Origin: Roseiflexus sp. RS-1
GTDB lineage: Bacteria; Chloroflexota; Chloroflexia; Chloroflexales; Roseiflexaceae
Direction: 5' to 3'
DNA: 64,000 nt
NCBI RefSeq assembly: GCF_000016665.1
Contig: NC_009523.1
Location: 4,339,501 to 4,403,500 of the forward strand
A program made the position numbers and the translations under genes. The notes beneath the pieces are model-generated. The model did no database searches. It had not been told where the DNA came from and was given only the letters and a program-made list of their open reading frames with translations. Below are positions 37,965-54,389 of the stretch, piece after piece (the stretch's first letter is position 1; each line of letters starts with the position of its first letter).

Positions 37965-39086
37965 GTGTTAGCAATAGAGCGCCAGAACGCAATCACAATA
38001 GCGATGCCATCTGTAGAACCCAAATACTCCAGCGACCGGGGCGTTGCGTCGGTCAGGCACGATGAGCATATCGTGCAGACCTGTATTCCGCTGCTTCTGC
38101 ACCCCGATGAACAGGTGCAACGGCAGGCGACGCTTCTCCTGTTGACCCTGTACGGAACCCATGCATTCACATTGCTGCGGCGACGGTTGAGCGACGAAAA
38201 ACCGCAAGTGCGCCGTGAAGCCGAACAGGCGTTACGTGTGCTGGGACGACAGAGCGGGCATCCGGTCGATTTCCGACCCTTCCGCGGCATGCACATTGAA
38301 TGTCTCGGCACACTACGCGTGTATATCGGCAACCAGGAAATCCTCTCCCACGAGTGGGCGCAGTCCAACGTCAGTCGCGCCGGGCGGCGCAAAGTGCAGG
38401 CAGTGCTGGCATATCTCGTGCATCGCGGGCGCGGCGGCGCCTCGGCAGACGAGATCCGGGCTGCGGTCTGGGGAGACGGTGGTGCAACCGGCGCGCTTGG
38501 GCGCACAATGACCGCGCTGCGCCAGACCATTGAGCACTTCGGCGGAACCAGCATGGCGGAGAGCCTCCTGATCTCCAGCAATCAACGCTACATCCTGACA
38601 CCGGATGCCTATACCACTGATGTGCGCTCATTCGAGCATACCATCCGCGTTGCCGAGCAGACCGAACACGACCGCGACCTGGCGGCAGCCGCGCCGGTCT
38701 ACCGCCACGCCTGTGACCTGTATGGCGGACCCTACCTGGCGGGTGTCGATATGCTTGCCGACGAGATCGAAGAACGCCGGACTGAACTCCTCAATGCGTA
38801 TCTGAACGCACTGGAGCGACTGGCGGAATACGCTTATCAACAGGGAGACGACGAGCAATGCCTGGCGCTCTGTCATCGCGGCATTCGCTTCGATCCCACT
38901 GATGAGCGCCTCACGCTCTGGATGCTGCGCTGCTATGCGCGCCAGCGCAACGAGAGCGAGATCGCGCGTGTGTTCCGGCGCTATTTGCGCGCCCTTGCCG
39001 CCCCGCCCGACCAGGGAGATGCAGTGGTGCGCTGGATGCGGCTGCGATCAGGCACACACAACGAAGCCGTAGACATTACGACGTAG
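37965..39086 (+). CDS. SARP/BTAD-type transcription regulator with HEAT-like N-terminus
   Basis: Up to 373 residues (GTG 37965; ATG 38004 possible). The N-terminal helical repeat TCIPLLLHPDEQVQRQATLL is HEAT-like (about 38-90). A winged-helix domain follows: HIECLGTLRVYIGNQEI, RRKVQAVLAYLVHRGRGGAS, GRTMTALRQTIEHFGG, ISSNQRYILTPDAYTTDV. The bacterial transcriptional activation domain (TPR-like) covers about 215-350 (AAAAPVYRHACDLYGGPYLA, ALCHRGIRFDPTDERLTLWM). It lies immediately upstream of the secretion cluster on the same strand, about 480 bases away, so it is a candidate regulator of that cluster. Confidence 0.85.
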   Translation: MLAIERQNAITIAMPSVEPKYSSDRGVASVRHDEHIVQTCIPLLLHPDEQVQRQATLLLLTLYGTHAFTLLRRRLSDEKPQVRREAEQALRVLGRQSGHPVDFRPFRGMHIECLGTLRVYIGNQEILSHEWAQSNVSRAGRRKVQAVLAYLVHRGRGGASADEIRAAVWGDGGATGALGRTMTALRQTIEHFGGTSMAESLLISSNQRYILTPDAYTTDVRSFEHTIRVAEQTEHDRDLAAAAPVYRHACDLYGGPYLAGVDMLADEIEERRTELLNAYLNALERLAEYAYQQGDDEQCLALCHRGIRFDPTDERLTLWMLRCYARQRNESEIARVFRRYLRALAAPPDQGDAVVRWMRLRSGTHNEAVDITT

Positions 39087-39564
39087 CACCTGCCTTCTTT
39101 TGAGAATCACACACCTCATCGGTACGACGCCCCGCGACAAACACCAGACCGGAACGCAGACCCATCGTTCTGATCACTATGCCGGAAGCGCAGGCAAACG
39201 CAAAGACGATTGCAGCGGAGCGCAGGATGAATTTTCAGAAATTCGTCGGGACGGCGTGCACCTCAGGCGGGACTATGAGTTCCAAAATTATATAGTCTTC
39301 ATCAGCCCGCACGAGTCAGGTCAAGCCTGAACGACGGAAGTTGGATTTCATTTCCTCAAGGTTCATCAGGCATCCCGCGATACCATCCTGGTATCTGATG
39401 ATAAGTTCTAAATATCATTATGACAAGTTAACCAAAAAAAACCGAAAACCGGCATGTAGAATAGTGATGGGAGGTTTGCAGGCGCCGGGCAATGTTCTGA
39501 CACGCCCGACCTTCAATGCCGTCACCAGTATCGCATCGTCCTTGCCTGTTGAGGAACATTGCAC
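39087..39564. other. Leader region of the type VII-like cluster
   Basis: 478 bases without a gene. AT-rich patch at 39395-39465 (GACAAGTTAACC, A-tract, TGTAGAAT at 39455-39462), the likeliest promoter zone, though spacing to a -35 is not convincing. Confidence 0.45.
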
Positions 39565-40260
39565 ATGTCCATCGAATTCGACGTATCGTGGGCGCCTTCC
39601 GAGCACAAGACGGTCTCTCGTGAACCTGATAAGACCATTCGTGAGGTCGTCCAGAGTCTGGTTGTGCAACTGAACCTGCCGGAGTACGATCCGCAGGGAC
39701 GACGGATCGTCTACGGGTTATACCGCGAGCACGACGGTGAACGGGAACTTCTCCAGGACGCACGCACGCTGAAAAGTGCGCGCATCCAGGCGCAAACGGT
39801 CTATATTGCGAATGTGGCTGCACCCTGGTGGCAGTCCAACGCTACGCTGCCTGCTCCAAAACCAGGTCCCCGCCCTCCGACAAAGCCACTGCCGCGACGA
39901 CTCGCGTCGCCCTCTTCCTGCCGGCTCAAACTGGCGCCCAGTTGCACTGTTGTGGTTCAGGGCGATTATCTTGAACTCGACCGCGCCTACCTGTCGAGCA
40001 CATTGCCCCAGACGACCATCCTGGCGGAAAAAGCGCATATCTTCAGCGGGTTTGACTCGCGTCTCATGCACGTCAGTCGAAAGAACCACTGCGCCATCAT
40101 TCGCCAGGGTGATCACTGGCTGTTGCGCGCATATAAACCCACCTATGTCAACGGCAAATTACTCAACAATGGTCAGACGGTGACGATTCAGCCGCCAGGA
40201 GCGGAGGTTGTTCTTGGAAACGGCGGATGGCCCATCACCATTGAACTGTTTGAGGCATAG
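39565..40260 (+). CDS. Ubiquitin-like (YukD/EsaB-type) and FHA-like fusion protein
   Basis: 231 residues from ATG 39565 (TTG 39559 possible). N-terminal beta-grasp domain (about 1-88): IREVVQSLVVQLNLPEYDPQ, RIVYGLYREHDGERELLQDA and VYIANVAAPWWQ, resembling EsaB/YukD ubiquitin-like proteins of type VII systems. A Pro-rich linker, then a degenerate FHA domain (about 125-231): SRLMHVSRKNHCAIIRQGDH, KPTYVNGKLLNNGQTV. FHA domains read phospho-Thr, so it may link the cluster's kinase to the ATPase. First gene of the cluster; the N-terminal fold and PWW motif recur in the 50956 protein. Confidence 0.72.
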   Translation: MSIEFDVSWAPSEHKTVSREPDKTIREVVQSLVVQLNLPEYDPQGRRIVYGLYREHDGERELLQDARTLKSARIQAQTVYIANVAAPWWQSNATLPAPKPGPRPPTKPLPRRLASPSSCRLKLAPSCTVVVQGDYLELDRAYLSSTLPQTTILAEKAHIFSGFDSRLMHVSRKNHCAIIRQGDHWLLRAYKPTYVNGKLLNNGQTVTIQPPGAEVVLGNGGWPITIELFEA

Positions 40261-40340
40261 CACCTTCCCTGCGCATATGCGCAATGGTTGTCATACCCAC
40301 AATCACGCGAAGAACCATGTGAAAGGAGGATCAACAACGT

Positions 40341-40619
40341 ATGCCGCCAATCAGTTTAGACCCGCAGCAGGCTCGTGCGACCGCATCGGTGTTCGATGGA
40401 GGCAAAGGTTCCATCGAAGGCGAATTGAGTCGCATGATGAGTTCGGTCAGCGAGGTGACGTCCACCTGGTCTGGTCAAAGCCGACAGCAGTTCGAGTCGC
40501 GCTGGGAAGAGTGGAGTCAGCGACTGCGCACCATGATGGACGAGTTGCAGAATCTGGCGAACGGACTGCGCCGCGAGGCGGAGGAATTTGAGTCTGTCGA
40601 TCGATCATTCAATGCATAA
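40341..40619 (+). CDS. WXG100 protein 1
   Basis: 92-residue ESAT-6-like helical hairpin, the substrate class of type VII secretion. The turn has Trp-Ser-Gly in EVTSTWSGQSRQQFESRW, flanked by two helices of expected length. Near the C-terminus, FESVD in EEFESVDRSF resembles the YxxxD/E export signal with Phe for Tyr. AAAGGAGG ribosome site, so probably highly translated. 42 bases before a close paralogue. Confidence 0.93.
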   Translation: MPPISLDPQQARATASVFDGGKGSIEGELSRMMSSVSEVTSTWSGQSRQQFESRWEEWSQRLRTMMDELQNLANGLRREAEEFESVDRSFNA

Positions 40620-40661
40620 GGACGCCCTGAACAGGAACAGAACCCGAATGAGGAGAATGCC

Positions 40662-40943
40662 ATGCCCATGATCAGTCTTGACACCGATGCGGCGCGCTCG
40701 GCTTCCGCGACGTTAGCCGCAAGCAAAAGTTCGATCGAAGGCGAACTGGGCCGCATGATGAGTTCGGCAAACGAGGTCATGTCGACCTGGTCTGGTACAA
40801 GCCGACAGCAGTTCGAGTCGCAGTGGGAGCAGTGGTGCCAGAAACTGCGAACAATGATGGAAGAATTGCAGAGCCTCTCGAACGGGTTGCGCCGCGAGGC
40901 GGAGGAGTTCGAGGCGGTTGATCGATCATTCCTGGCTGCCTGA
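40662..40943 (+). CDS. WXG100 protein 2
   Basis: 93 residues, paralogous to the previous gene (SSIEGELGRMMSSANEVMST then WSGTSRQQFESQWEQW). FEAVD near the C-terminus again matches an FxxxD-type signal. The pair could form the obligate heterodimer seen for EsxA/EsxB. GAGGAG ribosome site. A strong hairpin separates it from the ATPase gene. Confidence 0.93.
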   Translation: MPMISLDTDAARSASATLAASKSSIEGELGRMMSSANEVMSTWSGTSRQQFESQWEQWCQKLRTMMEELQSLSNGLRREAEEFEAVDRSFLAA

Positions 40944-40955
40944 AGTGTGAATGTC

Positions 40956-40985
40956 AGACCCCGGAGGACGCTGCCTCTGGGGTCT
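40956..40985 (+). promoter_or_regulatory. Strong intergenic stem-loop between WXG100 and ATPase genes
   Basis: AGACCCCGGAGG (40956-40967), loop ACGCTG, CCTCTGGGGTCT (40974-40985). A 12-bp stem with a single G-T pair. What follows is CTTCCTC rather than a T-tract, so partial terminator or mRNA-stabilising processing site. It would keep WXG100 levels above those of the large ATPase. Confidence 0.7.
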
Positions 40986-40999
40986 CTTCCTCAACAACA

Positions 41000-43900
41000 A
41001 TGACAGTGACTGAGACCAATCCGACCGAAGCGCCAGCAATCGATGCGCCGGAGTCGTTCAACCGACCGCCGCGTATCCTGCGCAGGTTGCCGACCGATGA
41101 GATCGAGATTCCGGCGCCGCCCGGCGCTCCAACACTGTCGTTGCCGGCGCGCCTTGGGTTCATCCTGCTTCCGGCGATAACCGGCATCTTCTACCTGATC
41201 GCTCTGATTGCGCGTGGCGGTCAGGGAGGGAGCATCTGGCTGTCGTTGCCGATCGTGCTCATTTCATTCGCCAGCGTTGCGATGGGAATCTGGACCTATA
41301 TCTCGCAACGTCGCGCTCAGGAGCAGGCTCGCCAGGAGTACGAGAATGCCTATGCCGAAACGCTTGAACGGGTTCGCTCCCATCTCCGTTTCCTTGATGC
41401 AGAACAGCGCAACGTGCGCGAGGCGAATGACCCTGAACCGACCACACTGGTGCAGATTGTTGAGGGTGATGGCGACCTGCCTGAACCGCGTCTCTGGGAA
41501 CGACGCTCAAACGACGAGGACTTTCTTCGCCTGCGCATCGGGCGCGGCGATCTGCCCACCAGCGTCACTATCAAGCCGCCACGCGCCAATCAGTTCCAGT
41601 ATACGCCGGAACTGCGGCGGGCGCTTGACCTGGCGCGCGAGTTCGCCATGGTGCGCGATGTTCCGATAACGCTTGCGCTCCGCCAGTGCGGTTCGATCGG
41701 CATTGCCGGCAATGACGCTGCTGTCGTCCAGTTTGTCTATGCGTTTATATGGCAGATCGTCGTTCATCATTCGCCGGACGAGGTGCGCCTGGCGGCGTTC
41801 TGGTCAGCACATTTCGATACAACATGGTCATGGTTGCGATGGCTTCCGCATACGCGCGCCTTTGACGAAGAATCGTACCGTTTACTTGCGCGCTATGACG
41901 GCGATCCCGATCACTTCACCCAGGTTGTTGAAAGTCTCCTGCGCGAACTGCGTCAGCGGATCGAGTATGGCGTCACCAATCGTCCGCATGTTGTCATCGT
42001 GCTCGACAGTTATCCGACATTCGGCGCGCAGCACGACGTCTTTCTCGATCTGATGAGACGCGGGCGCTCGCTGGGCTTCAGCGTGCTGTTTCTTGTTTCC
42101 GAATCGCGGCAGACGCCGGGCGAGTGCGGCGGCTACATCGAACTGACGCCACGCACGTTGCTTGCCCTGGCGGGCGCCGAAGGAGGATACACCCCATTTT
42201 CTCCCGACAGCGTCACGCGCGCTGAGAGCGAACGCCTGGCGCGCACCCTGGCGCGCATCGCAGATGTCTCCCTCGACCAGCAGCGTGAACTGCCGCGCAA
42301 TGTGCGTTTCTCGACCATCCTGGACCTGGGAGAAGTCAAGACCTACGATCCAGAACAGTTCTGGAAAGACCCTTCCGATAGCTGGCATCCGGCGCCTGTT
42401 GGTATGACGGGACCCGACGCTCACCATGATCGCTTTGCGATCAATCTCAACGAAGGTTTTCATGGCGTCCATGGCATCGTCGCCGGAACCACCGGTTCGG
42501 GCAAGAGCGAATTTCTGCTTACCTTCCTGATGTCGCTGGCAGTGCTCCACAGCCCGGATCGCCTGAACCTCATGCTGATCGACTTCAAAGGCGGCGCAAC
42601 GTTCAAAGACCTGGAAGGTCTGCCGCATACGGTCGGTATGGTGACCGATCTGGCAGGGTACGAGGCGGAACGGGCGCTGATTGCGATCAACAGCGAACTC
42701 GACCGGCGCAAACAGCGATTGCAGCGCGCCAATGTCGCCAATATCCGCGAATATCGCCGCAGGATGGCGCGCAATCCATCCCTTGCGCCGTTGCCGAACC
42801 TGATGATCGTGATCGATGAATTCGATGAAATGGTGCGCGACTACCCGGAATTCGTCCCCGAACTGATCCGGGTCGCCAAACAGGGGCGCAGCCTTGGCGT
42901 GCATCTGCTCTTTGCCACTCAGCAGCCATCACAGGTCAAAGAAGGGTTGCTCCGCAACCTGACCTACTGGATAGCCCTCCGGGTTACCTCGACCGAGGAC
43001 AGCAAGACGATGGTCACCATCCCCGACGCGGCATATCTGACGACCGAAACGCCGGGACGCGGCTACTTCCGGGTGAACAAACAGATCGTCGCCTTTCAAT
43101 CGGCGCGTGTGACTGTGCCCTACCAGCCATTTGAACGGAGCGACTCATTCGGCGAGGTCGATGTGACCGGTCGGCGAAAGGTGATCAGCGCCCACGAACT
43201 GGGCATCGAGCGTTTTGTGAATGATGTGCTTCGCCTGTGTGAACAGTATCGCGCTGAACCACGCGCGCTGGAGATCATCACGCCGCAGGCGGCGTACCGG
43301 TACACTTCAGCAGTCGCGCGCCGCGAACTGCCCGCACCGGTCAACCCCGGCGAGCCGCAGGCGATCATCCGTCAGGCGTTGCAACGCTACTTCGAGCAAA
43401 CCGACGAAGACGCAACCGAAGCCGGCAGGCGGGTTATCCGCGATATGGTTGCGCAACTCGAAGGCAAGCGCGACGTCGAGACCGAACTGGCGCTGATTGT
43501 GGAAGCCATGGCGCGGGCGCGCGGACCGCAGTACGCCTCCGCAAAGTATCGGGTGTGGATGCCGCCGTTGCCCGATGCCATCCCGCTGGTCGATCTGCTC
43601 GACAGAGCGCCGCTCGCCCCCGACGCCTGGATGCAGGCGCCGATAGGGTTGCTCGACTACCCGACACGCGCTGAGCAACTCCCGCTGGTTCTCGACCTGG
43701 CAGGCAAACACGGCAATCTGCTGATCGTCGGCGGATCGCGGTCGGGCAAAACCGTGCTGGTGCGCACCCTCATGCTGGCGCTCGCTATGACGCACTCGCC
43801 TGCAGACCTGTGGATGTACACGATTGATGCCGGTGGTCGGGGGTGCGGCATGGCGCTGCCGCCTGTTGCCGATGGCGACGCGAGCGACAGGGTGCTGCCG

Positions 43901-45667
43901 CATCTGGCGGACATGCTGACACCGCAGGACAGCGTGCGCATCGAACGATTGCTGGTCGAACTCGAATCAGCCATTGAAGACCGCCGCAGCCTGCTGCGCA
44001 CCCACGGCGTCGATACCCTCGGCGAGTACCGGCGCCTGCATCAGCGCAACCCATCGTTGCCGCCGCCACCGCCGGGCATCCTGGTGGTGATTGACAACCT
44101 GGCCGATCTGGTCGGCGCACAACCGGAAACAACCATAGAAGCGCTCATGGCGCTGATCCGCGAAGCGCGCCCGTTTGGCATCGTCTTCGTGGTAACGGCT
44201 GGCCTGGCAAAGGATGTGAGCCGCTGGCAGGGGTTGTTCGAGACGCGCATTGTGTTGCGAGTCAATGATGAAAACGACTCGGACACGCTGCTCGGCAAAA
44301 AGGTGGCCGCCCGCATCCGCGCCGATCAACCGGGGCGCGCCTTCCTGCGCACCGGCGAAGGAGCGGTGGAACTGCACGTTGCGTTGCCGATCCTGCGCGA
44401 TCTGCGGCGCCGTGAAGGGCGCGGCGCCGACGATGCGCTGCTGTCCGGCGATATGCAGGGTGAACTCGAATACTCGCTGCGGATCGCTGCGCGCCGCAAT
44501 CGGTTCACCCCCGAACATGCCCGCCCGCATCCGCTGCGCCTGCTGCCGCCACGGATCGACCTGCGCGACCTGCTGGATGAAGTTCCGGCGCCTGGCATCC
44601 CCTTTGCGCGCGATAGCCTGACGCTGCGCCCGGTGACGCTCGACTTCGACAGCGGTATGAGCCATCTGCTGATCGCCGGTGGTCCGGATAGCGGCAAATC
44701 AGAGACGTTGCGCACCATTCTTACCGCGCTGATGCTGCGTTCCACGCCGGACGAGACGCAGTTCGTGCTGGTTGACTACCGCCGCCGCACGTTCCAGGAG
44801 ATACTGGAAACACCTTTCGTGCCTGCCTGGTCGATCCAGGTTCCTCACGATCCCGTCCCGCTGCCATCGTCGTTTGCAAATACCAGACATGACCAGCGTG
44901 ACATCAACCTTGCCGTCACCGAAGGCGAACTGGCAGGGCTATGCATGAGACTGCGCGAGCGGTTGAATGAGCGGGTGTACCTGGGAGTATCCAGACCTCG
45001 ATTGATTCTGGCGGTCAACGACCTCGACCTGATGATCGGCAGAGAACAGGAGTATCTGGCGCAACTGGCGTCGCTGGCGATGCGTGGCAGCGATATTGGC
45101 TTCCACGTCATTCTTACGGCAACCGATTTTTCATCGTGGCAGAGCAGCAATCAACTCATTAAAGCCATCCGCACGGAACGCTGCGGTCTCTTCCTGGGCA
45201 AACCGGCTGAACCCGGCAGTGACACGCCAAACATTGCAGGCGTCGGCGTCCGGTGGTCGAAAACGCTGGCGAAAGCGCAATTTCCGCCAGGACGGGGGCT
45301 GGCGCTGCTGCGCGGTCAGCAGATGCTGGTACAGGTCGCCTATACCGGTTCCGCAATGCTCGACGAGATCCGGCAGCGTTACCGGACAACAGCGCAGATC
45401 GACGGGCAGAACGGCGCTCTCGACGCCGACATCGGGCAGGTCGCCCCGGAGCACAGCGCCGATGCGGAGCAGAACGCCACTGACATCGGGCAGGTCGCCC
45501 CGGAGCGCGGCGCCGATGCGGAGCAGAACGCCGCTGACATCGGGCAGGTCGCCCCGGAGCACAGCGCCGATGCGGAGCAGAACGGCTCTGACCGCGACAC
45601 AGCACCTGTTGCCGTCAATGTATCGGCAAACCCGGTCCACGAGACAACCGGAGGTCGCAATGACTGA
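41000..45667 (+). CDS. EssC/EccC-type FtsK-SpoIIIE ATPase (type VII secretion motor)
   Basis: 1555-residue membrane ATPase, the core of ESX/Ess secretion. Two TM helices (about 52-100: LGFILLPAITGIFYLIALIA, LSLPIVLISFASVAMGIWTY), then a linker ATPase-like domain. Three FtsK-like modules: D1 Walker A GTTGSGKSE (about 496-504) and Walker B MIVIDEFDEM; D2 GGSRSGKTV (about 911) with VVIDNLADLV; D3 GGPDSGKSE (about 1229) with LAVNDLDLMI. Only D1 has the DE catalytic pair. Unlike Firmicute EssC it has no N-terminal FHA domains, which are on separate proteins here. The C-terminus has three 18-residue repeats. No clear ribosome site. Overlaps the next gene by 8 bases. Confidence 0.95.
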   Translation: MTVTETNPTEAPAIDAPESFNRPPRILRRLPTDEIEIPAPPGAPTLSLPARLGFILLPAITGIFYLIALIARGGQGGSIWLSLPIVLISFASVAMGIWTYISQRRAQEQARQEYENAYAETLERVRSHLRFLDAEQRNVREANDPEPTTLVQIVEGDGDLPEPRLWERRSNDEDFLRLRIGRGDLPTSVTIKPPRANQFQYTPELRRALDLAREFAMVRDVPITLALRQCGSIGIAGNDAAVVQFVYAFIWQIVVHHSPDEVRLAAFWSAHFDTTWSWLRWLPHTRAFDEESYRLLARYDGDPDHFTQVVESLLRELRQRIEYGVTNRPHVVIVLDSYPTFGAQHDVFLDLMRRGRSLGFSVLFLVSESRQTPGECGGYIELTPRTLLALAGAEGGYTPFSPDSVTRAESERLARTLARIADVSLDQQRELPRNVRFSTILDLGEVKTYDPEQFWKDPSDSWHPAPVGMTGPDAHHDRFAINLNEGFHGVHGIVAGTTGSGKSEFLLTFLMSLAVLHSPDRLNLMLIDFKGGATFKDLEGLPHTVGMVTDLAGYEAERALIAINSELDRRKQRLQRANVANIREYRRRMARNPSLAPLPNLMIVIDEFDEMVRDYPEFVPELIRVAKQGRSLGVHLLFATQQPSQVKEGLLRNLTYWIALRVTSTEDSKTMVTIPDAAYLTTETPGRGYFRVNKQIVAFQSARVTVPYQPFERSDSFGEVDVTGRRKVISAHELGIERFVNDVLRLCEQYRAEPRALEIITPQAAYRYTSAVARRELPAPVNPGEPQAIIRQALQRYFEQTDEDATEAGRRVIRDMVAQLEGKRDVETELALIVEAMARARGPQYASAKYRVWMPPLPDAIPLVDLLDRAPLAPDAWMQAPIGLLDYPTRAEQLPLVLDLAGKHGNLLIVGGSRSGKTVLVRTLMLALAMTHSPADLWMYTIDAGGRGCGMALPPVADGDASDRVLPHLADMLTPQDSVRIERLLVELESAIEDRRSLLRTHGVDTLGEYRRLHQRNPSLPPPPPGILVVIDNLADLVGAQPETTIEALMALIREARPFGIVFVVTAGLAKDVSRWQGLFETRIVLRVNDENDSDTLLGKKVAARIRADQPGRAFLRTGEGAVELHVALPILRDLRRREGRGADDALLSGDMQGELEYSLRIAARRNRFTPEHARPHPLRLLPPRIDLRDLLDEVPAPGIPFARDSLTLRPVTLDFDSGMSHLLIAGGPDSGKSETLRTILTALMLRSTPDETQFVLVDYRRRTFQEILETPFVPAWSIQVPHDPVPLPSSFANTRHDQRDINLAVTEGELAGLCMRLRERLNERVYLGVSRPRLILAVNDLDLMIGREQEYLAQLASLAMRGSDIGFHVILTATDFSSWQSSNQLIKAIRTERCGLFLGKPAEPGSDTPNIAGVGVRWSKTLAKAQFPPGRGLALLRGQQMLVQVAYTGSAMLDEIRQRYRTTAQIDGQNGALDADIGQVAPEHSADAEQNATDIGQVAPERGADAEQNAADIGQVAPEHSADAEQNGSDRDTAPVAVNVSANPVHETTGGRND
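45428..45589 (+). repeat. Three 54-bp tandem repeats inside the ATPase gene
   Basis: Units at 45428, 45482 and 45536, each encoding DIGQVAPEHSADAEQNAT or a close variant. Acidic, probably disordered tail after the third ATPase module. Confidence 0.92.
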
Positions 45668-46511
45668 GTACGAACTGTGGCGCTACTTCGAGCAGTATGC
45701 TCAAATGAGCAATGCGTGGTGGTATTCGGTTGCCGTACTGCCGGCGACGATCATTTCCGCATGCGCCTACTTCCTGATGTGGCTGGCGCTGCGACGAACC
45801 AGGCAGTTGCCCAAGATGTTTCTCTGGCTCTGCGTTGGCAGCATTCCGGTGATCCTGATCCTGCCATCGTTCTATGTCAGCATCAATCTGACCGACGCTC
45901 TGGCGCGTGTCGGGTTTGTCGCTCCGGCGAACGAGCAGCAGATGAGCCGCGCTGTAGCGCTCCAGATCGGCGCGTACCTGAGTCAGATCGCCACCCTCGG
46001 CATCATCGGGGCATCGCTGGCAGTTGTCATTCTCATCGCAGCCATTCTGATCGGCGGCTATGCACCGCAGCAGATTATGCAAACCGTCCAGTCACTGTCA
46101 CAGAGTTTCTCTAAGGCAATGACGCGCGCCTTCGGACCGCCGCGGACAGCGCGGGTCGCCGCCAGCTCGAAGTACGGCATCATCAAGGTCATGCGCGCTG
46201 GTGCGCAACAGGGCGCGCAGTTCGGCGTGACCAACGGCGCAATCATCGGCAAGAGCGACGCGACAATGGTCATTACTGACGATATCGTGTCACGCCGTCA
46301 CGCGCGTTTTGAAATCCGTAACGACTCGGTCTTTTTGATCGATATGAACAGCACAAATGGAACCTATGTCCGGCGCAACCAGCGCGACGAGGAACTCAAC
46401 GGCGATCCGTTTGAATTGCGCCATGGCGACATCATTTATCTCGGCTCGCCCTCAGAACCGGAATCGGTTGAGTTGCGGTATGAGCGCACCCTATCAGGAG
46501 GACAGTCATGA
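45660..46511 (+). CDS. Membrane FHA-domain protein
   Basis: 283 residues from ATG 45660, with a good GGAGGT site. Three membrane helices: YSVAVLPATIISACAYFLMW, MFLWLCVGSIPVILILPSFY, and TLGIIGASLAVVILIAAILI. C-terminal cytoplasmic FHA domain (about 185-275): GAIIGKSDATMVITDDIVSR, RHARFEIRNDSVFLIDMNST, then NGTYV. This supplies the phospho-Thr reader that EssC carries as an N-terminal fusion in Firmicutes. The gene overlaps the ATPase gene upstream (8 bases) and the vWA gene downstream (ATGA). Confidence 0.9.
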   Translation: MTEYELWRYFEQYAQMSNAWWYSVAVLPATIISACAYFLMWLALRRTRQLPKMFLWLCVGSIPVILILPSFYVSINLTDALARVGFVAPANEQQMSRAVALQIGAYLSQIATLGIIGASLAVVILIAAILIGGYAPQQIMQTVQSLSQSFSKAMTRAFGPPRTARVAASSKYGIIKVMRAGAQQGAQFGVTNGAIIGKSDATMVITDDIVSRRHARFEIRNDSVFLIDMNSTNGTYVRRNQRDEELNGDPFELRHGDIIYLGSPSEPESVELRYERTLSGGQS

Positions 46512-47734
46512 AGCGGATCGGTATCATCACAACCCTTCTCGTTGCCCTGCTCCTGGTTGCTCCGGCACACGCGCAAAGTCCCGCCTGCCAGGGGTTAGAG
46601 GTTCATGCTGCGCAACTCACGTTTCCAACCGTCGCCATTCAGTTCAGCGTCTGTGACGCACAATGGAACCGGATCACCACGCTGGACAGGAGCGCCGTCC
46701 GCATCATTGAAGACGGAACTCCGATCACCAGTTTCACCCTGGAATCGCAGACAGCGCACGACGGACAACCGGTTCAAACCGTGCCCCTGGTGAACGGTGG
46801 CACATTCACGCTGGTGACGACCGGCGCGAGTATCGGGATTGTGTTCGACGCTTCGCAACTGCTCAACGGCACTGGCGCCGGTGCAGGCGATCATCTCGGC
46901 GCGGCACGCGCCGCTATCGAAGCGTTTCTCCTTGAGCCAGGCGATCCGCCGCCGCCGCGCACCCGATCGCCGGGCAATATGGAGCGCGTCGCGCTCTTCA
47001 TTCCGGCGGATCAGCCGGCGCAGGCGTTGCAGCCAGACGGGTTGCCGGGATTCACCCAGGATCGGTATGCGGTGATCAATACCCTGCGTCAGAACCTGCC
47101 GGTCCGTCAGGGGAAAACCAGCCTGAATGCCGCCATTCAGGCCGCCATCGACGCCACTGCTCGCGATGCGCAGGAAAACGGCGGCAAAGCAGTGGTGCTG
47201 GTGGTGAGTGACGGTGGCGACGCGCTAACCGGCGACTCGTTCAATAGTTTGATCAGCCAGGCGTCGCAAAAACAGGTGAAGATTGTGGCGTTCGGCATCG
47301 GAACGGATAAAGCGCTGCAGAATAACGGGTTTCGGCTGAAACAACTCGCCGAAGCGACCGGTGGCATCTATCTTGAACGACCGGATGCGAACAGCGTCGG
47401 CAGCGCTTTCCAGCTCGTGGTGCAATCACAACCGGCTGCGATCTATACCGTGCGCTACGATACCCGGATCATCGACGATGGAAAATCGCACACAGTAGTT
47501 CTAGAAGTGGTTACTCCTTCTGGAACGCTGAGCTATCCGTTTCCGCTCACCGCCAATGTGCCGTCACCCAATATCACGCTCGCGCCGTTGGGAGACGTGC
47601 TGCTGCGGCAGTATTTCATGTTCGCCATTCCAATCGCCGTCATGCTCTCACTGGTTCTGACCCTGATGAGCGGCGTCATTTTCTGGGTAGGCAGCGCTTC
47701 GTCCGGCATAACACGCGGAAAGACACGACACTGA
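46508..47734 (+). CDS. Exported, membrane-anchored vWA-domain protein
   Basis: 408 residues. Signal peptide (MKRIGIITTLLVALLLVAPA HAQ), a beta-rich N-terminal part, a von Willebrand A domain (about 100-315; GIVFDASQLLNG, KTSLNAAIQAAIDATARD, KAVVLVVSDGGDALTG) and a C-terminal TM (YFMFAIPIAVMLSLVLTLMS). The MIDAS loop is DASQL rather than DxSxS, so metal binding may be weakened. A probable extracytoplasmic scaffold of the secretion complex, like vWA proteins found with FHA/PP2C/kinase sets. ATGA-coupled to the FHA gene. Confidence 0.87.
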   Translation: MKRIGIITTLLVALLLVAPAHAQSPACQGLEVHAAQLTFPTVAIQFSVCDAQWNRITTLDRSAVRIIEDGTPITSFTLESQTAHDGQPVQTVPLVNGGTFTLVTTGASIGIVFDASQLLNGTGAGAGDHLGAARAAIEAFLLEPGDPPPPRTRSPGNMERVALFIPADQPAQALQPDGLPGFTQDRYAVINTLRQNLPVRQGKTSLNAAIQAAIDATARDAQENGGKAVVLVVSDGGDALTGDSFNSLISQASQKQVKIVAFGIGTDKALQNNGFRLKQLAEATGGIYLERPDANSVGSAFQLVVQSQPAAIYTVRYDTRIIDDGKSHTVVLEVVTPSGTLSYPFPLTANVPSPNITLAPLGDVLLRQYFMFAIPIAVMLSLVLTLMSGVIFWVGSASSGITRGKTRH

Positions 47735-47750
47735 GCGCCAGAGGTGGATC

Positions 47751-49130
47751 ATGCCCGAAATCCCAATTCCGTCGCGGCTGGGCAATTTTGAGATACTCGA
47801 CCTGATTGGCGTCGGACTGAGCGGCGAGGTCTACAAGGCGCGCTACCACGATGGCACGATGGTGGCGCTCAAGGTGCTTGCCATGCGACATCACAAAAAC
47901 CCGACGGTGTTCGGATACTTCACCAATGAACAACTGTTGCTCCGCGAGGTGGCACAGCACCGACGTCACCCGCACATCGTCGAATATCTCACCAGCAATC
48001 TCAACCGACCACCGTACTACCTGGCGACGCGCCTGGTGGAAGGCGCGCGCGGGTTGGACGCTATGCTCGGCGACCGACCATTGATGCCCGCAAGCGGCAA
48101 GCCGCAACTGGCTTCCTTTGTGGTGCGCGTTGTTTCCCAGATCGCCAGCGCGCTCGATTACCTGCACGCCGGTCATCCGACCTACAGCCCGATCATCCAT
48201 CGCGACGTCAAGCCGTCGAATATCCTGATCGACTCAAATGGCAACGCAGTGCTGATCGACTTCAGCATTGCCAGCCACCCGCACTATGCGCTGGTCGATG
48301 AAAAAAATCTGGGAACTCCCGGCTACATGGCGCCGGAGCAGTACGAAGGTCGGGAAGTGCCAGCATCGGATCAGTTCGCGCTGGCGGTCATTGCACTCCA
48401 TATGCTGACCGGTCGCCGCCCATTACCCAACAGCGCCACCTCGTCGCTCAAACAGATCGAACGCTGGCGGGACACAAAGCATGAGGAGATCGTTCGTCTG
48501 CTGGGAAACCGCACCCATACCGCCGATGTGCTTCGTCGCGCGCTGGCATACGATCCGGCGGCGCGCTACGAAAGTTGTGAGATTTTCGCCGACCAGTTGC
48601 GCCGCGCGCTGGTGCAGGACGGCGAGAATGTATATGCACAACCAGAGCGCATAAGAGGTCAATCTCCCATGCCGCATTCGACCAGACACGTTGCGTTCTC
48701 GCCGTTCATTCTTGGCTGGATCGGCATGGGTATCGTCGTGGCGATTGCGCTGCTGATGCTGATCCTGGCAGTGGCCGCGCCAGCAAGCGGCGAACAGGCC
48801 GTCCCTACAGCACCCGTCGTGTCAGCGGCAACCGCAACCCTGGCGGCAGTGACAGCAAAGCCGACATCCTCCCAGGCAACGCCTGTACCTGCAATTCAGA
48901 GCATCCTCGTTCCGGCGGGGGCGGCAGGGGCAGCGGGATCGGTCACAATCATCAACCGCGAACCGCTCCGTGCTCAACCATCAACCGAAAGCAACATCCT
49001 GGCATGGATGCCGGACGGGGCGCAGGCCAGTCGAACCGGCAACGAACAGCGGAACGGCTCACTGGTATGGTACGAAGTGCAGTACGACGGCAAGATCGGC
49101 TGGTGTCGCAACATCTCCTGCAAACCGTAG
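47751..49130 (+). CDS. Transmembrane Ser/Thr protein kinase with SH3-like ectodomain
   Basis: 459 residues. Kinase domain 11-290: Gly loop IGVGLSGEVYKA, Lys in MVALKVL, HRDVKPSN (about 150), DFS in place of DFG (about 170), MAPEQY and DQFALAVIALHMLTGRRP. All catalytic residues but the DFG Gly are kept, so it is probably active. TM at about 318-340 (GWIGMGIVVAIALLMLILAV), a Thr/Ala/Pro stalk, then an SH3b-like ectodomain (about 398-459, EPLRAQPSTESNILAWMPDG, WYEVQYDGKIGWCRN). In type VIIb systems the EssB component is a pseudokinase with a TM, so this may be its enzymatically live counterpart. AGAGGTGG site. Confidence 0.92.
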   Translation: MPEIPIPSRLGNFEILDLIGVGLSGEVYKARYHDGTMVALKVLAMRHHKNPTVFGYFTNEQLLLREVAQHRRHPHIVEYLTSNLNRPPYYLATRLVEGARGLDAMLGDRPLMPASGKPQLASFVVRVVSQIASALDYLHAGHPTYSPIIHRDVKPSNILIDSNGNAVLIDFSIASHPHYALVDEKNLGTPGYMAPEQYEGREVPASDQFALAVIALHMLTGRRPLPNSATSSLKQIERWRDTKHEEIVRLLGNRTHTADVLRRALAYDPAARYESCEIFADQLRRALVQDGENVYAQPERIRGQSPMPHSTRHVAFSPFILGWIGMGIVVAIALLMLILAVAAPASGEQAVPTAPVVSAATATLAAVTAKPTSSQATPVPAIQSILVPAGAAGAAGSVTIINREPLRAQPSTESNILAWMPDGAQASRTGNEQRNGSLVWYEVQYDGKIGWCRNISCKP

Positions 49131-49154
49131 ACGCAACACATAAGGGGGCGCTGT

Positions 49155-50906
49155 ATGGGCACGAGCACCGCCAGTTTCGATATTGATGCGCGCACCGACC
49201 GCGGGCGCCAGCGCTCGAACAATCAGGATAGCATCGGGCGCGCCGATCGATGGAAAAACCGCGATGGTCAACCGATCGAGCGCAGTCTGAGAGAACGGTA
49301 CGGACGCCTCTACATCGTCGCCGATGGCGTCGGCGGCAATGCCGACGGCGCGGACGCCAGCCGTATGGTTGTCGATGAGGTTATGCAGGCATTTTACTAC
49401 GACACCCGACTGCCCGAAGAACCGGTCGAACGTCTGCGCGCCGCCATCGAGTTCGTCACGAGCGTTATTCACGCTGAAGCGCACCGGCGCCATAACAACA
49501 TGGCATCGACAATCGTCGCTGCGCTCATCCATGACAGCACACTGACCATCGCAAATGTGGGTGACAGTCCGGCGTTGCTCTGCCGTCCGGGACAGACGCC
49601 TAAACTGCTCACCAAGGCGCATGTGCGTCGTGAAGCCGATGGCGGCACATCGCTGGCGCAGGCGATGGGTGATCAGCAGGTCGTTCCATCGATCTTCTCC
49701 ATGCCGCTGGAGGAAGGCGACGCGGTGGTGCTCTGTTCCGACGGATTGACCGACCTGGTGCAACCCGACGAAATCGCCGGGATTGTGTCGACTCGAATGG
49801 CTGGCGACGCCACTCGCACGCTTATTGCGCTGGCGAACCGCCGTGGCGGGCACGATAACATCAGCGCGATTGTGGTACGCAACGCACCGCCGCCAAAAGG
49901 CGTCGCTCCCTTCGCCGGTCGGCGAGTGCTCATGGCAGTGGCAGCCCTGGGAGTGGCCGGGCTGCTCGGAGTGGCGCTACTGGCGCTTCCTTTGCTAAAC
50001 GCTGCTCCAATCTTGCCTCAAGGATCATCGCAACAGTCCGGCACATCGTTCTCAACCCCGCTTTTCGGCAGTGGCAGTCACACGACCATCCCCGGCGGAC
50101 TTCCGACGTCAACCCTCGGCGCGCTGCCAACACCGACCGACACGCCGGTACCGCCAACAGCAACCCGGCGCCCCCCTACCGCTCGCCCGACTGCACAACC
50201 GTCACCGGTCAGCAGCACTCCGGTTCTGTCAACGAGTGAGATTGTTGTTCCGACCAGCACGCCGACTCCTGACGACAGGACGATCATGCCAGACCTGATC
50301 CGCAAGCCGCTGCAGGAGGCGGAGAATATCCTCAAGACGCTGGGCGTGCAATACATCACCGAAGTCGTTCCGGGAAGCGACGATATTCCTCCCGGTCACA
50401 TCGTCGCAACCGATCCACCGGCAGAAGCGAAGATCGTTCCGGGCAACCCCATAAAGATAAAAGTCAGGCAAAACCCGACGCCACCTCCGGCGAATAACCC
50501 GCCGCCACCGGTGAATAACCCGCCACCGGCGAATAACCCGCCACCGGCGAATAACCCGCCGCCACCGGCAAATGACCCGCTGCCGGCAACACCAACACCG
50601 CAGATGTCTGGTCCTGTTGTGCCAACTGCGCCACCGACACCGGAGCCGACCGCGACACCGTTACCAACGTCGACCTCTGAATCCGGCGGTTCCGGCGGTT
50701 CCGGCGGCTCCGGCGGCGGCTCCGGCGGCTCCGGCGGTGGCTCCGGCGGCTCCGGCGGCGGCTCCGGCGGCTCCGGCGGCGGCTCCGACGGCTCCGGCGG
50801 CGGTTCTGGCGGCTCCGGCGGCGGTTCTGGCGGCTCCGGCAGCGGTTCCGACGGCTCCGGCGGTGGTTCTGGCGGCTCCGGCGGCTCCGGTGGAACCAAT
50901 CCTTGA
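49155..50906 (+). CDS. Transmembrane PP2C phosphatase with PASTA ectodomain and GGS tail
   Basis: 583 residues. PP2C domain 5-245 with metal motifs NNQDSIG, YIVADGVGGNADGADASR, ANVGDSPALL, CSDGLTDLV and GGHDNISAIVV. TM (LMAVAALGVAGLLGVALLAL, about 259-278). A Thr/Pro-rich stalk, one PASTA domain (about 377-438; MPDLIRKPLQEAENILKTLG, PPGHIVATDPPAEAKIVPGN), a PPPANN repeat stretch (about 441-478), and a 70-residue Gly/Ser tail. PASTA domains bind muropeptides and normally belong to PknB-type kinases; here the domain is on the phosphatase. Follows the kinase by 24 bases and is likely its antagonist. Confidence 0.92.
   Translation: MGTSTASFDIDARTDRGRQRSNNQDSIGRADRWKNRDGQPIERSLRERYGRLYIVADGVGGNADGADASRMVVDEVMQAFYYDTRLPEEPVERLRAAIEFVTSVIHAEAHRRHNNMASTIVAALIHDSTLTIANVGDSPALLCRPGQTPKLLTKAHVRREADGGTSLAQAMGDQQVVPSIFSMPLEEGDAVVLCSDGLTDLVQPDEIAGIVSTRMAGDATRTLIALANRRGGHDNISAIVVRNAPPPKGVAPFAGRRVLMAVAALGVAGLLGVALLALPLLNAAPILPQGSSQQSGTSFSTPLFGSGSHTTIPGGLPTSTLGALPTPTDTPVPPTATRRPPTARPTAQPSPVSSTPVLSTSEIVVPTSTPTPDDRTIMPDLIRKPLQEAENILKTLGVQYITEVVPGSDDIPPGHIVATDPPAEAKIVPGNPIKIKVRQNPTPPPANNPPPPVNNPPPANNPPPANNPPPPANDPLPATPTPQMSGPVVPTAPPTPEPTATPLPTSTSESGGSGGSGGSGGGSGGSGGGSGGSGGGSGGSGGGSDGSGGGSGGSGGGSGGSGSGSDGSGGGSGGSGGSGGTNP
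50678..50894 (+). repeat. GGS-encoding low-complexity array
   Basis: Repeats of GGCGGCTCCGGC and variants encoding (GGS)n with a few Asp substitutions, at the 3' end of the PP2C gene. Prone to slippage, so length may vary between strains. Confidence 0.92.
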
Positions 50907-50955
50907 GCATAGACGACATCACACCGTTGCGTATGCGCCAGAAGGATAGCAGAGC

Positions 50956-52260
50956 ATGACACTTCATCAACAGACATATCGCCTTTACCTGGGCGCCAAT
51001 CAGGTAACTACCGTTACGCTGCGCACTGATGAACCGCTCTACCGGATCGTCGAGCGCCTGGTGATTGAGCACGGCCTGCCGGTGGTCGATCAGTACGGAC
51101 AACCCATCACCTATGCCCTCTACGCGGGGCAGATCCGCCGGTTGAGCAATGAGATGACGCTGAGGCAGGCAGGCTACGATCAGGGTGGCGACCTCTATCT
51201 GGCGAATATCTATGCGCCGTGGTGGGAAGGCATTCCCGCCGTCACCCGGCGCTTCGGCGACGATCCACCCGCACCAAACGCCCGTCGCATTCCCTATGCG
51301 CTGGTTGGCATCGGCGCTGCCGTTGCGCTGATGGTGGTTATCGGCGGCGTCCTGCTATTTACTATCTTTTCAGGAAGGACGGGGACGGCTGCGCAAACGT
51401 CCGCCCTGGCGCAGCAACCGGCGCAAGGCGCCACGCAACGTTCCAATCCCACGGCAACGCTGGCGCCGGCGCCGACGCGCCAGAACACGCCCCAGTCAGC
51501 GCCTCCGACAGCGACGCTGGCGTCAACGCCACAACCGATGACGGGATTGCCGACTGCGACGCTGGCGTCGATACCGCAACTGACGACGGCATTGCCCACC
51601 GCGACTCTGGCATCGCCAGGAAACACGGTTGCCGTCTTGCTTCCGGCTGGCGCCGAAGAAGCCAGCGTTGCCGGTGTCAAACGCGAGTACCTCAACCGGG
51701 ACAACCGGCTCTTCTTCCAGGGGCGCACCAGCTTCGGCGCATACCTCTGGAGTGACTCCGGTCTACAAACGAAGGCGCCGGCCAGCCGGGGCGACATCGT
51801 CGTCAGCAACGGCGACAGGGTGGCGATTCTGAGTCAGAACAACGGCATTGCGCAGGTGCGCATCATCACCAATGCGCTTGATCCCGCCGATCCGAAAGTT
51901 ATCGGCGCGACCGGCTACCTGCCCGCGTGGCTCATTACCGATCAGAATGTGCCGCCGCCGCCAACTCCGGTTCCAGATGCAGGGAAACTGTGGGTGCGCA
52001 AATTGAACGAGGATGATGAACCAGGATGTATCTCTATGCGCATCACCGGGATCAACACCCGGGGATGGAGTTTCGGCGTCGATGGGATGAACCTGGCCGG
52101 ACGGTTTGACAATGCCGGTAATGCCCGACTGTGCGGGCTGGGTCCCGATCAGGAGGTGACGATCAGCGTGCGCGACCAGCGCGGCAGGGTGGTTCCCGGC
52201 GGCAGAGGCGTGCCTGCTAAAGGACGCGACATTATGCTCGGAACCTGGCAACGGAACTGA
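50956..52260 (+). CDS. Ubiquitin-like domain protein with one TM and SH3-like ectodomain
   Basis: 434 residues. N-terminal beta-grasp (about 1-88) homologous in pattern to the 39565 protein: VTLRTDEPLYRIVERLVIEH, YALYAGQIRRLSNEMTLRQA, LYLANIYAPWWEG. TM at about 113-138 (YALVGIGAAVALMVVIGGVL). The ectodomain has a Thr/Pro stalk with three TATLAS repeats, an SH3b-like region (GDRVAILSQNNGIAQVRIIT, GATGYLPAWLI) and a C-terminal beta domain. A YukD domain tied to membrane helices recalls actinobacterial EccD, but with a single span. Confidence 0.75.
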   Translation: MTLHQQTYRLYLGANQVTTVTLRTDEPLYRIVERLVIEHGLPVVDQYGQPITYALYAGQIRRLSNEMTLRQAGYDQGGDLYLANIYAPWWEGIPAVTRRFGDDPPAPNARRIPYALVGIGAAVALMVVIGGVLLFTIFSGRTGTAAQTSALAQQPAQGATQRSNPTATLAPAPTRQNTPQSAPPTATLASTPQPMTGLPTATLASIPQLTTALPTATLASPGNTVAVLLPAGAEEASVAGVKREYLNRDNRLFFQGRTSFGAYLWSDSGLQTKAPASRGDIVVSNGDRVAILSQNNGIAQVRIITNALDPADPKVIGATGYLPAWLITDQNVPPPPTPVPDAGKLWVRKLNEDDEPGCISMRITGINTRGWSFGVDGMNLAGRFDNAGNARLCGLGPDQEVTISVRDQRGRVVPGGRGVPAKGRDIMLGTWQRN

Positions 52261-52300
52261 CAGGCGACACCCGTTACGTGAAGACTTCTTGAAACAGTGG

Positions 52301-52578
52301 CAGAGGTAACCCGATGAGCCAGATCAAAGCCGACACTGATGCGTTACGCGCAACTATTGCCGCGATGCGGCAGGGAAGCAGCGCCATCGAGAATGCCCTC
52401 CAGCAGGCGGCGCAGGCGATGGCGACGCTCCAGAACAGTCGCTGGTCCGGCAATCACCGGCAGCAGGCGGAAGAGGTGTGGACGCGCCTGCAGGCGCAGT
52501 TTGCGCCCACGATCGAGGCGCTGAACCAGATTGCAGCCCGCACCGAGCGCTTCACCAACGCGCTCGAAGAGGCTGGGC
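52301..52578 (+). repeat. Direct repeat: WXG head, copy 1
   Basis: Includes the ribosome site (CAGAGGTAACC) and about 265 bases of coding sequence. Nearly identical to 53390-53667, 1089 bases downstream, with only scattered single-base changes. Similarity stops abruptly at the end of the WXG head. Confidence 0.92.
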
Positions 52579-53348
52579 GGGTGTTTGGGGATGGAACGGC
52601 GCACCTTCCTCCTCCCCACACACATCCATCTGACGGAGCTACTGCACCATCAAAGGGAACCGAGACCCCTGCGCCCCCGCCACCAAACACAACGCCGCCG
52701 CCGCCTCCGCCCAACCGGTCAGCGATACTGAACCAGAAGGTGCGCTTGAATAACGGCGCCGAAGTTCTGGTTGCACACCTCGACGGGCGAACACCGGTGG
52801 CTGGCATGGATAGCATCTACGGTAAACCTGGACAACTGCCGTTGAACGCAGTGATTACCAGCACGCCGGAAAATCGCGATCCAGACCTCTATGCTGCCGT
52901 TATCCACCAGTTTGGCGTAGAAGGCAACCCGCGCTATGCTCCCGACCAGTATACGTACTGTAACACGTTCGCAGGAGATGTCGTGCGGGCAATGGGAGCG
53001 CCGCTGCCAACCAAATCAGACCTGGGCATAAGCAAGGGTGACCGCGCGACGGTGGGCACGCAGGCGTTGTACCGCTGGTTAACAACCAACGCAGGCGCCC
53101 AGGGATGGCGCGAAGTGAATCCGAACACGCCTGAAGGACTCCGACTATTGCAGGAACATGTCAACGCCGGTAAACCGGCGCTTGCAGCGGATGAAGGTCA
53201 CGTAGCCGTTATCAGACCCGGGCAACAGGCCAATTCGGTTGCAGATTTGCGCATTGCCCAGGCAGGAGCGCGAAATCTGAATAATGTCCGACTGGGTGAT
53301 GCCGGGTTGGGTAGCGCATTCAGACCGCGCTACTTCATTCACGCATAG
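52314..53348 (+). CDS. WXG-headed protein with Cys/His peptidase-like tail (probable effector 1)
   Basis: 344 residues. Residues 1-95 form a WXG100-like helical hairpin (ATLQNSRWSGNHRQQAEEVW, with Trp-Ser-Gly). A Pro/Thr linker (about 96-142, PPPNTTPPPPPPNRS) leads to a C-terminal domain with Cys216 in YTYCNTFAGDVVRAMG and His296 in DEGHVAVIRPG, an arrangement typical of NlpC/P60-like or CHAP-like papain-fold peptidoglycan hydrolases. No signal peptide, so export would depend on the WXG head through the adjacent type VII machine. Family of the tail is inferred from the two motifs. Confidence 0.82.
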   Translation: MSQIKADTDALRATIAAMRQGSSAIENALQQAAQAMATLQNSRWSGNHRQQAEEVWTRLQAQFAPTIEALNQIAARTERFTNALEEAGRVFGDGTAHLPPPHTHPSDGATAPSKGTETPAPPPPNTTPPPPPPNRSAILNQKVRLNNGAEVLVAHLDGRTPVAGMDSIYGKPGQLPLNAVITSTPENRDPDLYAAVIHQFGVEGNPRYAPDQYTYCNTFAGDVVRAMGAPLPTKSDLGISKGDRATVGTQALYRWLTTNAGAQGWREVNPNTPEGLRLLQEHVNAGKPALAADEGHVAVIRPGQQANSVADLRIAQAGARNLNNVRLGDAGLGSAFRPRYFIHA

Positions 53349-53389
53349 CACACGTTCATTCCAGACACGCCTGATTGATAGACAAGAAA

Positions 53390-53667
53390 CAGAGGTAACC
53401 CCATGAGCCAGATCAAAGCCGACACCGATGCGTTACGCGCAACTATTGCCGCAATGCGGCAGGGAAGCAGCGCCATCGAGAACGCCCTCCAGCAGGCGGC
53501 GCAGGCGATGGCGACGCTCCAGAACAGTCGCTGGTCCGGCAATCACCAGCAGCAGGCGGAAGAGGTGTGGACGCGCCTGCAGGCGCAGTTTGCGCCCACC
53601 ATCGAGGCATTGAACCAGATTGCGAACCGCACCGAGCGTTTCACCAACGCACTTGAAGAGGCCGGGC
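53390..53667 (+). repeat. Direct repeat: WXG head, copy 2
   Basis: Second copy of the repeat at 52301-52578; same ribosome site and head domain. Confidence 0.92.
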
Positions 53668-54242
53668 GACAGTTTAACAACGGCGCCAGCATACCGCCTC
53701 CCGGCGCCGAAGCGCCGTCAAAATCTCCTCAACCGCATACTCCATCTCCAGGCAACCCTGATGCAGGTACTGGCGGCTTTCCTCCCCACGCGCCGATTCC
53801 GCCCGGACCGACAACCGTGCCGGGAGTTCTGGCAAACACCGCCGGTTGCACCAATTACGTGCTGCGCAGGCTCAACCTGAACGATATGAAACGCTGGCCC
53901 AACGCACTCGAATGGAACGAGGCGGCGACCAATGCTGGCTACGCGGTCGGCGTCAAACCAAAGAGCGGGTCAGTCATCGTATTTGAGCCAGGAGTGATGG
54001 GGGCAGATAGACAGGCGGGTCACGTGGCGTATGTCGAAGATGTCGTACAGAACCGCGACGGCACATTCAAGGTTACCATCAGCGAAGCCAATGTCGTGTA
54101 TCAAAACGGCGCTGTGGTGTGGGGAACCCACACACCGCCCACCAGACGCGAGATTGTGTTCCGTCAAAACGGTGACGGCACCCTGACCGACAGTCGCGGG
54201 AATCCGGTAAACGTCAGTTTCATCTATGGCAAAAAGGTGTGA
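53403..54242 (+). CDS. WXG-headed protein with CHAP-like tail (probable effector 2)
   Basis: 279 residues. WXG head (1-90) almost identical to that of effector 1. A Pro-rich linker is followed by a different tail matching CHAP amidase/endopeptidases: Cys149 in TAGCTNYVLRRLN, WNEAATNAGYAVGVKPKSGS, His207 in AGHVAYVEDVVQ, and Glu228/Asn230 in VTISEANVVY. CHAP enzymes cut peptide or amide bonds in peptidoglycan. No signal peptide. Likely a secreted wall hydrolase for self-remodelling or attack on neighbours. No separate immunity gene is obvious. Confidence 0.88.
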   Translation: MSQIKADTDALRATIAAMRQGSSAIENALQQAAQAMATLQNSRWSGNHQQQAEEVWTRLQAQFAPTIEALNQIANRTERFTNALEEAGRQFNNGASIPPPGAEAPSKSPQPHTPSPGNPDAGTGGFPPHAPIPPGPTTVPGVLANTAGCTNYVLRRLNLNDMKRWPNALEWNEAATNAGYAVGVKPKSGSVIVFEPGVMGADRQAGHVAYVEDVVQNRDGTFKVTISEANVVYQNGAVVWGTHTPPTRREIVFRQNGDGTLTDSRGNPVNVSFIYGKKV

Positions 54243-54389
54243 GTCACCAGGACAAATGTGTACTGCACATGCGCAGGCAGGTGTCATTCCCTGGCGAAGC
54301 GCAGCATGATTGAACGATGTGCGTACCGGGCGCGCGGGCATACCCGACCGCATGCGCGCCCGGTGTGCGCGATCCCGGCAGTCAACTCC

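Follow-up and report, generated by a model that had tools for sequence, protein, structure and literature searches.

A hairpin without a U-tract between WXG100 and ATPase genes in Roseiflexus and its relatives: a candidate RNA 3'-end element of type VII-like secretion operons

Intercistronic stem-loops have been described at the 3' end of highly expressed cistrons in the cip-cel operon of Ruminiclostridium (Clostridium) cellulolyticum, as part of selective RNA processing and stabilisation (SRPS); in this organism a U-run is absent from 28 of 33 such stem-loops, and the transcript ratio correlates with their folding energies (PMC4423207). In Escherichia coli, the structure located between malE and malF protects the malE mRNA (PMC5927463). 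A boundary in a secretion operon of the same broad type as that described below is known in Staphylococcus aureus, whose esxA mRNA is present at about 100 times the level of essC mRNA (PMC4285178) and whose esxA is monocistronic in strain Newman (PMC3313859). The hairpins in the esxB 5' UTR of Mycolicibacterium smegmatis, which were tested and failed to stabilise a reporter message (PMC11728522), concern the other end of the transcript in comparison to the hairpin considered here. WXG100 proteins have been recorded in Chloroflexi (PMC3935865), and a description of hairpins at WXG100-ATPase junctions was not found in the open-licence literature.

The window, which is the whole stretch of 64,000 nucleotides analysed (G000:C1:4339501-4403500), belongs to the single-contig 5.80-Mb genome of Roseiflexus sp. 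RS-1, of the order Chloroflexales. On its + strand two WXG100 genes encoding proteins of 92 aa (40341..40619; PF06013, E 3.9e-20) and 93 aa (40662..40943; PF06013, E 1.1e-16) precede an EssC/FtsK-type ATPase of 1555 aa (41000..45667), in which PF01580 (FtsK_SpoIIIE) is recognised in three stretches (E 1.6e-67); the initial annotation had named these neighbours correctly. The co-directional genes located downstream (45660..54242) encode, in this order, FHA, VWA, kinase, and PP2C-PASTA proteins, one protein without a Pfam match, and two WXG100-fusions. The WXG100 genes adjoin a multi-domain FtsK/SpoIIIE ATPase, as in type VII-like (WXG100/FtsK) secretion operons, and on this basis the locus is classified as such and secretion of the WXG100 proteins is predicted; the run of genes presumably forms a single transcription unit. 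A consensus scan of 39000-46000 found no sigma-70-like promoter on the + strand.

Other features of the locus are recorded here. The two fusion genes (52314-53348 and 53403-54242) share a nearly identical WXG100 N-terminus (PF06013) and have different C-termini, that of the second being a CHAP domain (PF05257); both proteins are likely secreted substrates of the same operon. A gene for a BTAD-domain (PF03704) regulator lies upstream of the operon (38073-39086), and the proteins encoded at 39565-40260 and 50956-52260 have, by eye, a similar N-terminal stretch ending in APWW, which may represent a YukD/EsaB-like domain of the ubiquitin type. The second WXG100 protein is 99% shared with a Roseiflexus MAG (L032).

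The hairpin occupies 40956..40985 of the + strand; 12 nt separate it from the stop codon of the second WXG100 gene, and 14 nt from the ATG of the ATPase. The arms of the inverted repeat (40956-40967 and 40974-40985) flank a 6-nt loop and all 12 positions of the RNA stem are paired, by 11 Watson-Crick pairs and one G.U pair. The folding energy of the 30-nt hairpin is -23.3 kcal/mol (z -5.45) and none of 200 shuffles was equally stable; this excess over shuffles is smaller once the surroundings are folded too (81 nt: z -2.48, 5/200 shuffles; 117 nt: z -1.38, 15/200 shuffles). When the 56-nt gap between the second WXG100 gene and the ATPase was dinucleotide-shuffled 5000 times, a 12/12 stem (G.U allowed, loop 3-8) arose in 5 of the shuffles. 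Such hairpins are uncommon in the genome, yet are found beyond this gap: in 464 kb, on the strand as given, 22 occur in the 98 kb outside called genes and 24 in the 366 kb inside them. No T-tract lies 3' of the stem (3 T among the next 8 nt), and the 14-nt linker (40986..40999) is pyrimidine-/CAA-rich, with neither a T-tract nor a Shine-Dalgarno by its sequence, T count, and anti-SD duplex. The near-perfect 12-bp hairpin without a T-tract described in the initial annotation is therefore real. It falls outside the canonical intrinsic terminator, defined by a GC-rich hairpin plus a U-tract, and is not listed by the terminator scan, while the Rfam 15 covariance models gave no matches up to E 1 in 40300-41200. 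The 42-nt gap between the two WXG100 genes (40620..40661) has no hairpin (best core +0.7 kcal/mol), and among the folded gaps of the run the only other strong hairpin is located behind the last gene (54319..54370, + strand; 20 pairs, -36.5 kcal/mol) and likewise has no T-tract.

Two further candidate properties were rejected. A genome-wide repeat was ruled out, as the hairpin sequence is found at one place only in the 5.80 Mb, with up to 3 mismatches allowed. As for strand preference, the + strand folds better in Roseiflexus sp. RS-1 (-23.3 vs -18.5) but the minus strand is better in several relatives, so there is no consistent strand signal.

The N-terminal 400 residues of the ATPase matched 50 of the 158 genomes of the class at E <= 1e-20, and WXG100 relatives were present in 35 of the 158; among the 60 relatives searched for the ATPase 58 had some match, FtsK-type proteins included. 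A junction was defined as the gap between a classical WXG100 gene and an ATPase gene immediately following it, and 13 were readable: the window itself (G000), G001, G005, G047, G050, G032, G057, G081, G056, G059, G033, G044, and L033. All 13 gaps contain a hairpin, with 11-22 pairs and energies from -18.6 to -31.5 kcal/mol, and in 11 it surpasses its own shuffles at p <= 0.05, the exceptions being G050 (p 0.12) and G033 (p 0.07). None of the 13 is followed by a U-tract, since none reaches 5 T in the next 8 nt. The gap sequences can be aligned beyond 100 shuffles in the G000/G001 and G056/G057 pairs only, so that the 13 junctions correspond to 11 sequence-unrelated hairpins; between G056 and the uncounted G035 a 10-base Shine-Dalgarno stretch is alignable. 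The stems of G056 and G057 differ by one compensatory change, from U-A to C-G. Because the hairpins of relatives share the junction but differ in sequence, it is seemingly the shape that has been retained; the position is kept among related operons in 13/13 cases, the element being weak at the junction G501 outside the class.

The ATPase starts were chosen by the author, and earlier in-frame starts in G047, G033, and G057 would put the hairpin partly inside the ATPase gene. In the G059 gap there are two strong hairpins, and the shuffle test and the whole-gap folding picked different ones. Left out of the 13 were G035, with a hairpin of -27.0 on a contig that ends before the ATPase; G031, aligned only from residue 96 and with its 5' end unplaced; G058 (L012), located at the start of a contig and aligned from residue 670 onwards; G060:C1179; lower ATPase matches without a locus; and the ATPases of L015-L027 and L029-L031 (32-43% identity). 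The G050 ATPase (L011 / L099, G050:C91), which is one of the 13, is read in two frames that overlap, with a single stop in the second, so that the gene may be split or frameshifted or the assembly faulty. L033 (CAKZRZ010000005.1), labelled as uncultured Arenicella, carries a WXG100-ATPase operon resembling the one in the window, with 67% identity in the WXG100 protein, and is probably a mis-binned contig. In the same genus the ATPase N-terminus is patchy: it is present in three of the six genomes G000-G005 (G000, G001, and G005) and was not found in G002-G004, G002 being 82% complete.

The background was evaluated in 862 kb, comprising eight groups from nine genomes, with genes called by the author's own script and a threshold of 10 pairs and -17 kcal/mol for the core hairpin. 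In co-directional gaps such hairpins were found in 11/93 cases at 35-100 nt, a count that includes the gap of the window, in 14/51 at 101-160 nt, and in 22/53 at 161-300 nt; they were found in 11/28 convergent gaps of 35-100 nt and in 0/18 divergent gaps up to 160 nt. Eight of the junction gaps belong to the first length class, four to the second, and one to the third, and multiplying the background rates across the 11 unrelated junctions gives 2.8e-9, a value that is only rough because the threshold was set after the hairpins had been seen, the genes were self-called, and the species share ancestry. By the same criterion, the WXG100-to-WXG100 gaps of the class have a hairpin in 0/10 cases, a weak control because the background predicts only one or two of ten; two of these gaps contain bulged elements (-21.3 and -31.0 kcal/mol) that fail the criterion. 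The initial annotation had placed the structure where expression should step down from substrates to motor: the place is borne out by the 13/13 junctions against 0/10 WXG-WXG gaps, and the expression step-down at this junction is plausible.

Other gaps near WXG100 genes give a varied picture. Outside the class, the sole WXG100-to-ATPase junction read (G501) is weak (-12.6), one of three WXG-WXG gaps is strong (G470 -36.0; G391 -2.1 and G173 -4.6), and the other gaps behind WXG100 genes have values of -24.7 (G268), -18.5 (G331), -23.7 (G480), and -11.6 (G391). A strong hairpin precedes the WXG100 block in one of four such gaps (G047, -23.2). Where no ATPase follows, WXG100 blocks can have a strong hairpin, as the second pair of G081:C185 (-33.8) and G048:C4 (-28.2), or WXG100 genes a weak one, as G056:C117 (-3.5, with gap limits a few bases off) and G033:C30 (-6.2, with a bulged element of -34.0 behind the WXG100 gene). 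A loose control of ATPases without a classical WXG100 gene directly upstream, in which one of seven beats shuffles (G081b), says little because in five of the seven the gap measures at most 25 nt or the genes overlap; three of these five were folded with 60 nt of gene, and four of the seven ATPases have a longer WXG-like gene upstream. At L103 (G081:C19:21500-24700), the 266-nt gap before a divergent ATPase contains a hairpin (-37.1 kcal/mol) whose stem ends are rich in T/A. Hairpins also lie within 90 nt behind small WXG-like genes of a second type (L164, L167, L168, and L169, in G055, G028, G037, and G036), with values of -47.3 (G055), -26.0 (G028), -25.0 (G037), and -16.0 (G036); that of G080 has none, the following gene beginning right at its stop codon, and none was seen in G081 (L166).

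With a probability of about 0.5, the hairpin would be a U-less intercistronic RNA 3'-end element that protects the WXG100 message so that the substrates exceed the motor. In particular, the WXG100 pair and the ATPase would be co-transcribed, the message would be cut or decay downstream, and a 3'-to-5' exonuclease would stall at the hairpin behind the stop codon of the second WXG100 gene; the short WXG100 message would thus be protected while the long ATPase part would be lost, and more of the small substrates than of the motor would be made. Synthesis of the motor may be reduced still more in Roseiflexus by the near-absent Shine-Dalgarno of the ATPase. We infer co-transcription, processing, protection, and the step in expression; the hairpin itself does lie in the gap behind the upstream cistron, as expected of a stabilising stem-loop of the SRPS type. 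Five or more T in the next 8 nt follow 8/46 background co-directional hairpins and 2.9% of random gap octamers, and the mean number of T is 1.9 behind the junction hairpins and 1.82 in random gap octamers; the lack of U-tracts at the 13 junctions argues against canonical termination and for a processed, stem-protected RNA end. Hairpins behind some WXG100 blocks without an ATPase (G081:C185 and G048:C4) are as expected of a WXG100 3'-end element. Genes for PNPase and RNase Y are present in the genome and a gene for RNase E/G was not found in it. The hairpin may also be a common 3'-end element, not special to this operon, because strong hairpins are general at gene ends, as the short convergent gaps indicate.

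In comparison to the described systems, the junction hairpins resemble the cip-cel SRPS in their mostly U-less stem-loops at the 3' end of a cistron, here presumably also the highly expressed one of its operon, with counterparts in relatives, and they share with malE-malF a structure between the upstream cistron and the next one, with protection proposed here. They share with the esxA-esaA boundary of S. aureus a hairpin right after a WXG100 gene (PMC4285178, PMC3313859). In contrast, processing sites and abundance ratios were measured for cip-cel and a large step-down for S. aureus, whereas in Roseiflexus, with other genes and in another phylum than cip-cel, the element is known and the step-down proposed from sequence alone; each lineage has here, unlike malE-malF, a hairpin unrelated in sequence. 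S. aureus has a predicted rho-independent terminator and, in some strains, a downstream promoter, and the next gene is esaA, while here it is the ATPase and no U-tract is present.

The main rival of the 3'-end element is partial termination, by a leaky U-less terminator or attenuator at which most polymerases would stop after the WXG100 pair and some would read through. This reading has the same step-down logic and agrees with the U-less hairpin behind the last gene, with the predicted terminator and strain-dependent read-through at esxA-esaA of S. aureus (PMC4285178), and with the U-less hairpin termination claimed in several bacteria (PMC8355165). Nevertheless, it is rather unlikely, as five or more T follow none of the 13 junction hairpins against 8/46 of the other co-directional ones; moreover, a complete stop is excluded unless a promoter was missed, since the hairpin ends 14 nt before the ATPase and, with no + strand promoter in the 39000-46000 scan, full termination would probably silence the motor. 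The mycobacterial polymerase, as Czyz et al. reportedly found in 2014, needs a U-tract, which is a further point against U-less termination. An ordinary gene-end hairpin without regulatory effect would agree with the occurrence of one in 11/93 short co-directional and 11/28 short convergent gaps, but this is improbable, as all 13 junctions have a hairpin whereas about 12% of the short co-directional gaps and 27% of the medium ones do.

The initial annotation had also noted that the ATPase start lacks a visible ribosome site and had proposed that the hairpin may control its translation; such control would act by blocking ribosomes or coupling to the upstream gene. The remark on the ribosome site is correct: there is no good Shine-Dalgarno, and the anti-SD duplex of the ATPase (-3.2) is the weakest of the ten operon genes tested, the nine others ranging from -4.8 to -10.9, with -10.9 for the first WXG100 gene, whose Shine-Dalgarno is strong, and -8.3 for the second. 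The hairpin edge is 14 nt from the ATG and a GGAGG lies within the 5' arm of the hairpin, but this motif is 32 nt from the ATPase ATG with no in-frame start nearby. The distance from the hairpin end to the ATPase start varies from 14 to 84 nt across the 13 junctions, and translational control is not supported as a shared role because in 9/13 a Shine-Dalgarno (duplex -4.2 or better) lies outside the hairpin. Translational control is thus quite improbable as the explanation of the element; in Roseiflexus, with its hairpin ending 14 nt before an ATG without a Shine-Dalgarno, it may be an additional local effect. The 12-bp inverted repeat could also be read at the DNA level, as the palindromic operator of a dimeric regulator or as a mobile palindromic repeat; this is very improbable, as most species have unrelated sequences here, only one copy of the hairpin occurs in Roseiflexus sp. 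RS-1 and only one of the exact arms in each of G056, G057, and G050, and the element follows a stop codon in a region where no promoter was found.

The kind of element, the intercistronic stabilising stem-loop, is already known, while its setting between WXG100 and ATPase genes was not found described. Beyond the single operon it can be proposed, tentatively and with the odds somewhat against it, that type VII-like operons carry an RNA-encoded setter of the substrate/motor ratio, in which the place and the strength of the hairpin, and not its sequence, would be selected; the hairpin would be renewed independently within the order, and a different device, the terminator, would act at the esxA boundary of S. 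aureus. If the protective 3'-end element is true, the ratio of substrate to motor would be written into the message as a hairpin conserved in place, a directly testable and sequence-independent rule that would offer a route to similar ratio setters in the operons of little-studied phyla.
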